Shown here in pieces: positions 18,766-53,530 of a stretch of DNA of 64,000 nt; position 1 is the stretch's first letter, and every line of letters begins with the position of its first letter. The stretch is taken from the NCBI GenBank assembly GCA_010909725.1, contig JAACMV010000016.1, positions 186,001-250,000 of the forward strand. Direction: 5' to 3'. The notes under the pieces are model-generated. The model made no database searches. It saw nothing but the letters and a program-made list of their open reading frames with translations, and was not told the DNA's origin. This DNA is from Picochlorum sp. 'celeri'. Its lineage: Eukaryota; Chlorophyta; Trebouxiophyceae. The translations under genes and the position numbers were made by a program.

Positions 18766-20229
18766 ATGGGAGAGAAAGAAGAGGAGGAAGGACAGGAACC
18801 AAAATTAAAACAGCAAAAGGTTGTCTCGAACAACATCATCGTGCAGTTTGTCTCTCCAGAGGGTGAGCCTACAGGTCCTCAGTTGGACGTCCCAACAAAC
18901 GTGACTGCACAGCAATGCCAAACGTTGCTTCAGGGTCTCTTACGTGAGGATGAACCACGACCATATTCATTTTACATAGATGATCAAGAGCTCGGAGGGG
19001 CGCTGGTGGATCACCTCAAGAAGCACAAGTTGTCTGTCGAGTCTCTCTTGAAGATTGTGTACCAGCCCCAGGCTGTGTTCCGGGTGAGACCTGTCACGCG
19101 ATGCTCAGCAAGTATACCTGGACACGATGCTGCTATTTTATGTGTCAATTTTTCACCGAATGGAAAGCATTTGTGCACTGGGAGTGGAGATACCACAGTG
19201 AGATTCTGGCATTTGGGGACTCAGACACCACACCACACGTGCCGAGGTCACAAGTCGTGGGTATTATCTGTCGTATGGTCTCCAGATGCTGCCATGGTGG
19301 CAAGTGGAGATCGAGATGGGGCCATATGGTTGTGGGATCCTACAAAGGGTACTGCTATTGGGCAGTGCAAAGGTCATAGAAAATTCATCTCGTCAATCTG
19401 CTGGGAGCCAGCGCACGAGGCACTCCCTTCACGACGATTCTGTTCAGGATCGAAAGATGGAACGGTAAAAGTATGGGAAGCAGGGACTCGAAGGCTGCTG
19501 TATTCACTGGGCAGCCACACAGCAGGAGTTACTGCTGTGATTTGGGGAGGTGAGGGATTGATATATTCAGCTGCAAGAGACTGTACAATTAATGTGTGGC
19601 GCTCATCTGACGGTAGTATGGTTAGGACACTCCGGGGACACGGGCATTGGGTGAACACAATGTCACTGTCAACATCATACGCTCTCAAAACTGGTGCATT
19701 TAATCACAAAGGGGAACGACCAGGGAGCGATGAGGATGCCCAAAAAGAGGCTCAAAAGAGATATTTGGAGGCAAAAGGAGGACAAACGAGCCCAGAAAGA
19801 TTGGTGACTGGGAGTGATGATTTCACATTGTGCTTGTGGGAGCCAGGAAGAAGCAAACAACCAATCTCTCGTATGGTGGGCCACCAACAGCTAGTCAATC
19901 AGGTTTGTTTTTCCCCTGATGGAAGATGGATTCTATCAGCTTCGTTCGATAAGAGCGTCAAGCTCTGGGACGGGGTCAAGGGCAAATTTGTTGCAACGTT
20001 CAGGGGACATGTGGGTCCCGTATACCAGGTGGCATGGTCTGCAGATTCTCGACTCGCAGTGAGTGGATCAAAAGATAGTACATTGAAATTGTGGGATATC
20101 AGGACTCGTAAGGCAGCGGTTGATCTACCAGGTCACGCTGATGAAGTTTTTACTGTTGACTGGAGCCCCACAGGAGACGCCGTTGCTAGTGGCGGTAGGG
20201 ATAAGGTGTTGAAACTGTGGAAGCAGTGA
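18766..20229 (+). CDS. NLE1: Notchless (NLE/Rsa4) WD-repeat ribosome assembly factor
   Basis: A single-exon 487-residue protein. Residues 23-100 form the NLE (ubiquitin-like) domain (VQFVSPEGEPTGPQLDVPTN start), which in yeast Rsa4 binds the MIDAS domain of the AAA ATPase Rea1/Midasin. Eight WD40 repeats follow, with clear GH...WD/WH pairs (for example GHDAAILCVNFSPNGKHLCT and GHVGPVYQVAWSAD) and a final KLWKQ. It acts in the nucleolus/nucleoplasm to release factors from pre-60S particles. The ATG at 18766 follows ATCATC and gives a Glu/Lys-rich N-terminus. Confidence 0.95.
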   Translation: MGEKEEEEGQEPKLKQQKVVSNNIIVQFVSPEGEPTGPQLDVPTNVTAQQCQTLLQGLLREDEPRPYSFYIDDQELGGALVDHLKKHKLSVESLLKIVYQPQAVFRVRPVTRCSASIPGHDAAILCVNFSPNGKHLCTGSGDTTVRFWHLGTQTPHHTCRGHKSWVLSVVWSPDAAMVASGDRDGAIWLWDPTKGTAIGQCKGHRKFISSICWEPAHEALPSRRFCSGSKDGTVKVWEAGTRRLLYSLGSHTAGVTAVIWGGEGLIYSAARDCTINVWRSSDGSMVRTLRGHGHWVNTMSLSTSYALKTGAFNHKGERPGSDEDAQKEAQKRYLEAKGGQTSPERLVTGSDDFTLCLWEPGRSKQPISRMVGHQQLVNQVCFSPDGRWILSASFDKSVKLWDGVKGKFVATFRGHVGPVYQVAWSADSRLAVSGSKDSTLKLWDIRTRKAAVDLPGHADEVFTVDWSPTGDAVASGGRDKVLKLWKQ

Positions 20230-20515
20230 CTTTATTTATTAACTTTATATTCGGTGCAGTATTGCCGCAAAAAATCCGTTTCCATGCGATACAAAAGGGT
20301 GGTAACTCTGTAATTCGATAGTATAAAATATCACATCGAGGATGGCTTCTCAGCGTGTTATGCTTCCCAAGGGACCCAGATTAATGTTTTAAAAAACTTC
20401 TTTATAATTTTGAGGGTACTCCTAACCTGTAAAGCTTGATTTTAGGGCGTGCCGGGGCTATGAATGTGTTTGTATTCGTCACAAAATCCTGATTTTCACG
20501 CATATAGCATCTGAC
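20230..20515. other. 3' flank of NLE and leader of the permuted tRNA gene
   Basis: Carries the NLE 3' UTR (AT-rich, TTTATTTATTAACTTTATA just after the stop) and the sequence upstream of the tRNA 3'-half. A CATATA motif at 20501-20506 lies just before it. No coding frame. Confidence 0.4.
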
Positions 20516-20600
20516 ATCGACAGGTTGCTGGTTCGAATCCGGTTGTGTCCTCTCATCCTCGTGGACATATAGCTCAATCTGGTAGAGCGGTCGACTGCAG
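20516..20600 (+). tRNA. Circularly permuted tRNA-Cys(GCA)
   Basis: The 3' half (20516-20551: position 38, anticodon 3' strand TCGAC, variable AGGTT, T arm GCTGG/TTCGAAT/CCGGT, acceptor TGTGTCC, discriminator T73) lies upstream of the 5' half (20563-20600: acceptor GGACATA, TA, D arm GCTC/AATCTGGTA/GAGC, G26, anticodon 5' strand GTCGA, CTGCAG). An 11-nt linker (20552-20562) joins them. Reassembled, this gives a 74-nt cloverleaf with a 7-bp acceptor stem (one G-U), 4-bp D stem, 5-bp anticodon stem and 5-bp T stem. The anticodon GCA is at 20597-20599 and the U73 discriminator is the tRNA-Cys identity element. The split lies at 37/38, the canonical intron position. Circularisation by the splicing endonuclease and ligase, then removal of the linker, is the known route for such genes. 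Confidence 0.93.
20530..20540 (+). promoter_or_regulatory. Pol III B box of the permuted tRNA gene
   Basis: GGTTCGAATCC matches the B-box consensus exactly. Because of the permutation it lies upstream of the A box (20570-20582, TAGCTCAATCTGG), the reverse of the normal order, 30 nt away. Confidence 0.85.
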
Positions 20601-20612
20601 TGCTTCCTTTTT
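20601..20612 (+). terminator. Trailer and Pol III terminator of the permuted tRNA
   Basis: A run of five T residues at 20608-20612 follows the 5' half by 7 nt, as expected for RNA polymerase III termination. The trailer TGCT (20601-20604) can pair with AGCA in the leader (20506-20509), and CAG (20598-20600) with CTG (20511-20513), which would hold both ends together in a bulge-helix-like structure for splicing. Confidence 0.75.
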
Positions 20613-20806: not shown

Positions 20807-21557
20807 TTACTCCATTGCTGGAGCAGCCTCCATTGCTGGAGCAGCAGCAGCTGGGGCTGGAAGCAACACACTGTCAATGATGAAAATCTGACCATTCTTT
20901 GCTGGAACAGTTCCCAGAATGTTGGCGGTGCCTCCGTTTCCATCGGTGACAACACTTCCCTCCACAGTCAAGGTGTTGCCTGGGAGAAGAGTCTCGACAA
21001 CTCCTTCCAAAGGAGTATCGCAGGAAGCTCCATCAGCAACCACGTGGTATGCCAAGATCTGCTGCAAAAGCTCAGTCTCCCCGAGGAGTTCCTCAGCAGT
21101 GATATCGAGAGCAGCAAGAGCGTTAGCAAAGGCTGCGTTGGTTGGGGCGAAGACATCCAATGGACCGGGAGCAGACAAGGCATCAGTCAAGTTGGCAGTC
21201 TGGACGGCAAGAACCAGGGTGGAAAAGTCAGGCTGGCTGGCGGCAATCTCCACAATGGTGGAAGAAGCATCGCAATACTGTCCGTTCACTGCATCATAAG
21301 ACGAAAGATCGGTTAGTGCATCGAGACAACCACACTCGACTTTTTGGATATGATCTACTACTACTACCACCACCAGACATGCAAACGCCCTTGTGCACCA
21401 TGCTCCCAGTGTCACGACTTTCATCCTGATATACGCATGATATATATCCACACAGATCTCCCTCCAGATCAGAATACGAGTGATATAACGTTGGGGTTGA
21501 CGCACCAGAGACTGCTGTGGCTGCAAAGGCCAAGACACACAAAGCAAACTTGTTCAT
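20807..21557 (-). CDS. Secreted fasciclin (FAS1) domain protein
   Basis: Exon 1 is 21557-21506 (ATG at 21557; signal peptide MNKFALCVLAFAATAVS) and exon 2 ends at 20807. The donor is GTGCGT at 21505; the acceptor is most likely TAG before 21354, but an AAAG before 21339 also keeps frame. The product is about 199 residues. After a short Cys-rich stretch (ECGCLDAL) comes one FAS1 domain with both conserved boxes: H1 (GPLDVFAPTNAAFANAL) and H2 (GQIFIIDSVLLPAP). The end is an Ala/Pro/Met repeat (APAMEAAPAME). FAS1 proteins mediate extracellular adhesion in algae and plants. No GPI signal is evident. Confidence 0.85.
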
Positions 21558-52414: not shown

Positions 52415-53530
52415 ATGGAGTCGAGTTCCATCACATTTCGAGATACAAGTGGGGTAGATTCGATGAATACAAGTGGCTCTGTGGGGGGAGTAGACCCAGG
52501 AAAACCTTGCCTGCAGACAGGTCAGCAGGAGGTGGATGTCACTGATGCACTTCTCAGGCAGGGTTCGCAGGATTTGAAGTTTTTTGCTGCACATGCGGAG
52601 CCGTCGTCCTCGGAACCAGCGCAGCAGGGTAGCACAAAGAGGAAGAGGAAACGACCACCAGTAGTTCCAAGGCCCAAGGGAGCCTTTATTTTCTATTCTA
52701 TGCAGTTCCGAGCGGCGTATAAAAAGACACACCCGGATTCAAATTTGACGGAGATGACCAAGGCGGCGGGTGCAGCATGGAAAGCCTTGTCAGATGAGGA
52801 GAAGAAGCCTTTTGTGGAGATGGCAACACAAGACAAGGAGCGATATGCCAAAGACAAACTGGCTCATCGCATGGAGAGCGATGATGGTGCCCAGAAAAAG
52901 AGAAAAGGAGTCTTTCTGTACTTTTTTGAACAGTTTAAGAAGCATTTCGACCTGCGGCCTGATTGGAAGAAGTTGAGTATGCCAGAGCTTTCAAAGGAAG
53001 CAGGCAAAGCATGGCAACAGTTGTCTGCGGAGGAAAAGGCCAAATATGCAGAGATGGCAAAGGAGGACGCAGATCATATGGCACCTGAAGGTGTCAGTAA
53101 CACGATAGGGTTGGCTGAGCATCGAAATACGTCCCGTGGTACTGCTGCAGCTGCTGCTGCTGCTACTAGTTCAGGACCTTCTATTAATAGGAATATTCCC
53201 AGGATTGCCAGTGCAGATCAGATACCAAACCCCCTGGAAGTATATCAGAAACAATTACATGATCAAATACATGAGTTGATGGGCACGTTGAAAAGGTTTC
53301 ATCAACAATCTCCGCTAGAAAGGGTAGTCTCAACACAGAGGCATCAGGCAAACTTGAGCCCATTTGTCCCGCAGCCCCTACTTGCCTCTCACCCTAGTGG
53401 CACTGCAAGCCCTTCCTCCCTTGCTCTTCCATCTAGGACGATAGAAAGTGGCCATCCTGCATTGCTTCCCAGGCCAAGGCGGCGAAGGAGCAATGAGACA
53501 GTTCTTCTCAAAGGAAAAGTGTTAGACTAG
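52415..53530 (+). CDS. Two-HMG-box DNA-binding protein
   Basis: ATG at 52415 gives about 371 residues in a single exon. After a Ser/Gly/Thr-rich N-terminus with a KRKRKR nuclear signal (about 75-81) come two HMG boxes: residues 86-153 (RPKGAFIFYSMQFRAAYKKT, WKALSDEEKKPFVEMA) and 164-230 (KKRKGVFLYFFEQFKKHFDL, WQQLSAEEKAKYAEMA). An Ala run (TAAAAAAATS) and a Pro/Ser/Gln-rich tail ending in Arg/Lys follow. Such proteins bend DNA or package chromatin, including in organelle nucleoids; this one looks nuclear. A specific target is not shown. Confidence 0.9.
   Translation: MESSSITFRDTSGVDSMNTSGSVGGVDPGKPCLQTGQQEVDVTDALLRQGSQDLKFFAAHAEPSSSEPAQQGSTKRKRKRPPVVPRPKGAFIFYSMQFRAAYKKTHPDSNLTEMTKAAGAAWKALSDEEKKPFVEMATQDKERYAKDKLAHRMESDDGAQKKRKGVFLYFFEQFKKHFDLRPDWKKLSMPELSKEAGKAWQQLSAEEKAKYAEMAKEDADHMAPEGVSNTIGLAEHRNTSRGTAAAAAAATSSGPSINRNIPRIASADQIPNPLEVYQKQLHDQIHELMGTLKRFHQQSPLERVVSTQRHQANLSPFVPQPLLASHPSGTASPSSLALPSRTIESGHPALLPRPRRRRSNETVLLKGKVLD

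Follow-up and report, generated by a model that had tools for sequence, protein, structure and literature searches.

A circularly permuted gene for tRNA-Cys(GCA), broken at position 37/38, is the supported and best reading of a short plus-strand segment within the DNA analysed here, and it appears to be one of at least 19 tRNA species encoded in this way in the genome of Picochlorum celeri. The whole 64,000-nucleotide stretch, referred to as the window, corresponds to positions 186001-250000 of contig C16 in a genome of 27.41 Mb and 30 contigs. It is very likely that this is a nuclear gene, that it is probably the sole source of this tRNA in the cell and that its product is matured via a spliced circle. 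What makes the finding interesting is how large and uniform the permuted set is to which tRNA-Cys belongs.

Layout of the tRNA-Cys(GCA) gene

The 3′ half of the gene, corresponding to tRNA positions 38-73 (20516-20551 by sequence, finder and covariance model), lies upstream of the 5′ half, positions 1-37 (20563-20600 by sequence, covariance model and pattern match), on one strand with an intervening sequence between them, which is the type II, 37/38 layout. All features of the gene are on the plus strand. The linker that leads from position 73 to position 1 (20552-20562, CTCATCCTCGT) is 11 nt long and lacks a T run; such a run, T5 at 20608-20612, is found 3′ of the 5′ half and is likely the RNA polymerase III terminator. 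A sequence-only reading of the window had proposed these two halves, the 11-nt linker and the 37/38 break, and its coordinates proved exact to the base. The inverted order of the internal promoter boxes and the terminator were likewise as it described, with the B box (GGTTCGAATCC, 20530-20540, in the T arm, by sequence and pattern match) located 5′ of the A box (TAGCTCAATCTGG, 20570-20582, positions 8-19).

U73 is the identity base of tRNA-Cys, and both marks of this tRNA are present in the sequence, the GCA anticodon at 20597-20599 and, at the end of the 3′ half, T20551. When the halves are rejoined, four stems form and, by eye, U8, A15:U48, G18G19, U33 and UUC at 54-56 are in place. The minimum free energy (MFE) structure of the rejoined 74-mer is the full cloverleaf that had been claimed together with GCA and U73, with a stability no better than that of shuffled sequences (z −0.90).

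The end of the leader (20506-20515) consists of AGCA (20506-20509), T, CTG (20511-20513) and AC, and occupies the place of an intron's 3′ end, as judged from the sequence, the MFE structure of the precursor and pairing across 19 genes (below). G20513, at leader position −3, is a possible partner of C32 (20595). The trailer (20601-20607, by sequence and MFE) opens with TGCT (20601-20604), which is pairable with AGCA of the leader, and a second possible pairing on the leader/trailer side joins CTG (20511-20513) to CAG (20598-20600).

The published assembly of P. celeri is phased and diploid, with 27.43 Mbp in 2 x 15 scaffolds and 46% GC according to its accessible text (PMC7225527); the GC content of the window, in 2-kb steps, is 43-49%. 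The other haplotype (contig C10) carries the same tRNA-Cys gene with identical halves and linker, both haplotypes being derived from one assembly project. Across 475 aligned bases the haplotypes differ once, at position 20502, which precedes the 3′ half; here a candidate TATA-like promoter stretch (20501-20506) reads CATATA on the window haplotype and CTTATA on the other. Two ORFs converge on the gene, one for a WD40 protein (18766-20229, plus strand) and one for a fasciclin-domain protein (20807-21547, minus strand).

The significance of the match was assessed with two tools. Our own finder, which considers the T arm, the acceptor stem across the linker, the D arm, U33 and the anticodon stem, returns one parse in the window, a tRNA-Cys scoring 42. 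Applied to 200 dinucleotide-shuffled versions of the window (12.8 Mb), it returns 27 parses, of which the best scores 39. A covariance model (R2) trained on in silico permutations of six ordinary tRNAs from this genome, with no natural permuted tRNA included, has 20516-20600 as its sole match in the 64 kb up to an E-value of 10, at 58.3 bits (E 7.2e-16, with E-values being rough). The R2 match falls exactly on the place first proposed from the letters. The expectation that an ordinary scanner would miss the gene was also borne out, as ARAGORN and Rfam (at the gathering score) report no tRNA in the window. Across the window and loci L038-L185, permuted genes score 24.9 to 66.1 bits with R2, overlapping with ordinary genes, since tRNA-Asn reaches 30.7 and 28.8 and tRNA-Phe 26.4, as compared to 24.9 for the weakest permuted gene, Ser(AGA); both Arg(TCG) copies are matched at 29.0 bits without their far 5′ half. 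Because of this overlap R2 alone cannot separate each of the 19 species, and it is decisive for tRNA-Cys and for those other class I genes that score at least 46 bits, not for every one of the 19.

The course of transcription, cutting, circle formation and charging as tRNA-Cys is what we infer from the gene layout. RNA polymerase III would produce one RNA comprising leader, 3′ half, linker, 5′ half and trailer and stopping at the T5 run. In its fold the linker would be closed off by the acceptor stem and the two outer ends by the anticodon stem, placing leader and trailer where the ends of a 37/38 intron would be. The Sen2/Sen34 splicing endonuclease could then cut after 37 and before 38, aided by pairing of position 32 with leader −3, and ligation of 37 to 38, most likely by the RtcB matched in the genome, would yield a circle. 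Removal of the linker by RNase P and tRNase Z, followed by CCA addition, would complete the tRNA. Sen34-like and Sen2-like domains (best PDB sequence matches 2.8e-16 and 2.6e-14), RtcB (535 bits), Tau95 (65 bits) and a TFIIIC B-block (30.8 bits) are all matched in the genome. The Sen2-like domain (L188) is matched with equal score on C9, C12, C21, C25 and C26 besides the C10/C16 pair, and the equal scores on five extra contigs may reflect a repeated gene or a duplication of contig ends.

The genome-wide set and its junction signal

At least 19 distinct permuted tRNA species were detected in the genome by the finder, with longer linkers allowed in part of the runs, and all 19 are joined at 37/38. 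They are Cys(GCA); Leu(AAG, CAG, TAA); Ser(AGA, GCT); Gly(GCC); Ala(TGC, CGC); Arg(TCT, TCG, CCT); Val(CAC, AAC); Tyr(GTA); Thr(CGT, AGT, TGT) and Met(CAT), the last presumably the elongator (eMet). The 18 species other than tRNA-Cys are located in L046, L053, L059, L061, L070, L086, L094, L096, L115, L117, L132, L142, L151, L153, L166, L171 and L178. Every gene found for Thr, Tyr and Cys is permuted. For eMet and Thr(CGT) the finder made the variable loop too long and the ends were corrected by hand; R2 agrees with the corrected ends. Contiguous genes account for 23 species, 13 of them with introns: Lys(CTT, TTT); Ile(AAT, TAT); Asn; Val(TAC); Glu(TTC, CTC); Met, presumably the initiator; Asp; Pro(AGG, CGG, TGG); Phe; Trp; Arg(CCG, ACG); Leu(CAA); Gln(CTG); Gly(TCC); Ser(CGA, TGA) and His. 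The anticodons of some intron-bearing genes were re-read by hand (L026, L029, L030, L045 and L092). His (L173), Arg(ACG) (L092), Pro(CGG) (L134) and Gln(CTG) (L135) are supported by ARAGORN alone, and Rfam at the gathering score did not find the His gene in L173.

Permuted species thus make up 19 of the 42 tRNA species found, a share that is uncertain and a number that is a lower bound. The T-arm pattern GGTTCRANYCC occurs at 187 places, and the analysis drew on 100 among the matches listed (C1 to C16), of which 30 were covered as loci, 52 fell in 51 fetched stretches, 12 were at tRNAs already covered and six, on C16 (second haplotype), were left. Four further T-arm patterns were used: SAGTTCRANYCTS with 83 places (30 as loci and 10 more read), SCGTTCRANYCGS with 17 places (all covered as loci), STGTTCRANYCAS with 43 places (10 read) and SGGWTCRANRCCS with 38 places (none read). 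Among the T-arm pattern places read and the Rfam candidates scored, Ala(AGC), Gln(TTG), Gly(CCC), Leu(TAG) and Sec were found neither permuted nor contiguous.

Linkers of the permuted genes are 11 to 58 nt long, except for the 128-nt linker of Arg(TCG), which exceeds the 1-74 bp range in the table of a review, as far as its accessible text goes (PMC3978253). Arg(TCG) is present as two near-identical copies on C8 (L086:187-388, plus strand, and L089, minus strand). On C5 (L132), permuted Val(CAC) (52586-52680, plus strand) and Val(AAC) (52927-53017, minus strand) stand tail to tail with 246 bases between them. Several other observations concern tRNA-like sequence in this genome. The alleles of the intron-bearing tRNA-Lys(TTT) gene, L015 (C3) and L018 (C23), differ in the intron and in both strands of the T stem, whose pairing is kept. 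Six T-arm pattern matches at C14:340416-342003, with two on C18, are spaced exactly 315 bases apart and form a tandem array. A T-arm-like 16-mer, AGGTCCCGGGTTCAAA, abuts the 5′ end of tRNA-Asn (L005/L006; C3 and C23) and likewise that of tRNA-Phe (L152/L164; C4, with a variant on C30), giving these genes a B-box-like piece upstream.

Eukaryotic tRNA precursors are spliced with position 32 paired to the third-last base of the intron. If leader and trailer stand in for the intron ends, position 32 is therefore expected to pair with leader −3, and this pair is Watson-Crick in 16 of the 19 permuted genes and G-U in one; Ser(GCT) and Val(CAC) are the two of the 19 without it. The helix formed by positions 32-35 and leader −3 to −6 is 75.7% paired across the 19 genes as compared to 25-40% in nine slid registers. 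When leaders were reassigned among genes, none of 20,000 trials reached the observed helix sum, and 16 pairs at 32 x −3 turned up in a single trial. The flanking helix h′ was not significant over the 19 genes (p 0.21). The 13 intron-bearing tRNAs of this genome give very similar values, with the helix 76.0% paired, the 32 x −3-type pair present in 11 of 13 and none of 20,000 reassignments reaching the observed pairing. The like pairing in permuted and intron-bearing genes indicates that permuted junctions carry the intron signal of this genome. The A-I pair is described as a feature of eukaryotic tRNA splicing in the accessible part of PMC4090602.

In the tRNA-Cys gene itself, two of the four central pairs form, C32-G(−3) included, and the MFE structure adds AGCA/TGCT. 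The precursor takes the expected fold shape with an energy no better than that of shuffles (z −0.78), so its leader/trailer pairing is not significant by energy and the support for it comes from the 19-gene set. The AGCA/TGCT and CTG/CAG stretches noted by the sequence-only reading are real, and their pairing in this one gene is what the energies fail to sustain. The same reading had spoken of a bulge-helix-bulge-like splice site. With a 32 x −3 pair and a partial central helix, the junction looks like the relaxed eukaryotic type and not a strict bulge-helix-bulge.

Upstream, between −50 and −15, AAATTC is carried by 10 of the 19 permuted genes and by 8 of 22 ordinary ones, as compared to 1.1% of random window stretches, a motif picked after inspection of the same sequences and with p-values uncorrected. 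For this count four second alleles were dropped and genes sharing their last 30 bases were counted once. It often lies within GGAAATTC or GAAAATTC and is a candidate external Pol III element. TATA in the same interval is seen in 7 of 19 permuted and 7 of 22 ordinary genes, with a background of 9.3%. An exact AAATTC is absent at −50 to −15 of the tRNA-Cys gene.

Alternatives to a working permuted gene

Whether the genome also holds a standard tRNA-Cys bears directly on the role of the permuted one, and the search for such a gene, which the sequence-only reading had recommended, found none in what was covered. No standard tRNA-Cys is present, by ARAGORN calls, among 34 Rfam tRNA matches in the genome (63 of 866 candidates scored), and a 131-nt DNA query matched only the two permuted alleles genome-wide up to an E-value of 10. 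A tRNA-Cys pattern, GGTAGAGCNNNNNNCTGCAR, with at most one mismatch, occurs at 22 places: the two alleles, which are exact, one exact match on C17 and 19 places with one mismatch. Of the latter, one was read (on C14), and the exact match on C17 (C17:434474), which is without a mate on C8 among the matches listed, was left unread. The place read, C14:87321 (L186), was rejected as a second tRNA-Cys, as neither the finder nor ARAGORN sees a tRNA there and it looks like coding sequence for a charged repeat. ARAGORN calls of tRNA-Cys(aca) in L059, which overlaps the 3′ half of permuted Gly(GCC), and of tRNA-Val in L047 were dismissed as false by eye, as was a tRNA-Ser in L103, where Rfam finds nothing.

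These results weigh on the possibility that the two halves are a relic, left by tandem duplication of a tRNA-Cys gene and unused, while a standard tRNA-Cys that was missed does the work. The extent of the census, with 63 of 866 Rfam candidates scored, part of the T-arm places read and the exact C17 match unread, leaves this some room. However, the stems and conserved positions are intact on both haplotypes and the terminator is retained, no standard gene emerged from the 34 Rfam matches, the DNA search or the pattern matches read, and 18 more species have the same layout with a common junction signal. We consider a relic improbable. It is more doubtful still that the halves are expressed as separate small RNAs or joined to other partners in the manner of a split tRNA, given that they match each other in the acceptor and anticodon stems and are separated by 11 nt on the same strand, followed by a single terminator. 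An artefact, be it an assembly error or a chance resemblance, is barely conceivable when both haplotypes agree, albeit within one assembly project, the scores are far above shuffles and model background, and 18 other species share the layout. A working permuted tRNA-Cys gene remains the preferred reading.

Comparison with known permuted tRNA systems

Permuted tRNA genes, tRNA-Cys(GCA) included, are already known; it is the size of the set that exceeds any published count found in the sources accessible to us. The accessible text of one review puts the tally by 2014 at 34 permuted tRNA genes, spread over six algae and one archaeon, describes circular intermediates for red and green algal permuted tRNAs, and offers an origin model of tandem duplication of intron-bearing genes (PMC3978253). 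No published report of a permuted tRNA in Picochlorum was found in the literature outside subscription papers and supplements. The paper on Picochlorum SENEW3 relied on tRNAscan-SE 2.0, and the word "permuted" is absent from its accessible text; Picochlorum and "permuted tRNA" both occur in the reference list of PMC13353863, and the accessible part of PMC12633428 mentions Picochlorum in other matters.

We find it reasonably probable, if with less assurance than for the tRNA-Cys gene, that close to half of the tRNA repertoire of this alga is inside-out (19 of 42 species, with all Thr, Tyr and Cys genes found) and that decoding relies on circular intermediates, with an intron-derived splice signal kept, AAATTC common to permuted and ordinary genes and TFIIIC present despite the reversed boxes, making this the most permuted set known. 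With at least 19 permuted species alongside 13 intron-bearing ones and matches to splicing genes, this diploid alga would let the origin of permuted genes be tested, and the same set would provide a test bed for Pol III initiation on reversed boxes and for RtcB as the maker of circles. The tRNA lists of standard scanners would miss much of the permuted set in such algae.

The closest counterparts to the gene itself, by a published table, are in Ostreococcus lucimarinus, O. tauri and Micromonas pusilla, prasinophytes of another green algal class, which have the same tRNA-Cys(GCA) with the same 37/38 junction and no extra intron (Maruyama 2010, via the accessible text of PMC3978253). Their linkers are 26, 38 and 12 bp, as compared to 11 nt in Picochlorum. 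Cyanidioschyzon merolae, as presented in the same review, resembles Picochlorum in having a large set (11 of 43 genes), swapped halves, a T run after the 5′ half and a splicing-type junction. Its junctions, however, are at four places, whereas 19 of 19 are at 37/38 here, and it has an upstream TATA-like promoter with homologues of TFC1 and TFC3 not identified in the accessible account (PMC3978253), whereas Picochlorum has Tau95 and B-block matches. The sequence-only reading had named groups in which permuted tRNA genes are indeed known, but its list fell short of the trebouxiophyte Auxenochlorella. Strain UTEX 250-A of that genus, as described in the accessible texts, is similar to Picochlorum as a trebouxiophyte with a diploid streamlined genome, reversed halves and an incomplete tRNAscan-SE set (PMC12633428/PMC12636532). 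The chlorarachniophyte nucleomorphs likewise contain permuted tRNAs of green algal descent, as in Picochlorum, but those of Bigelowiella natans and Amorphochlora amoebiformis have only two permuted tRNA-Ser each in the accessible text (PMC4494063), as compared to at least 19 species here.
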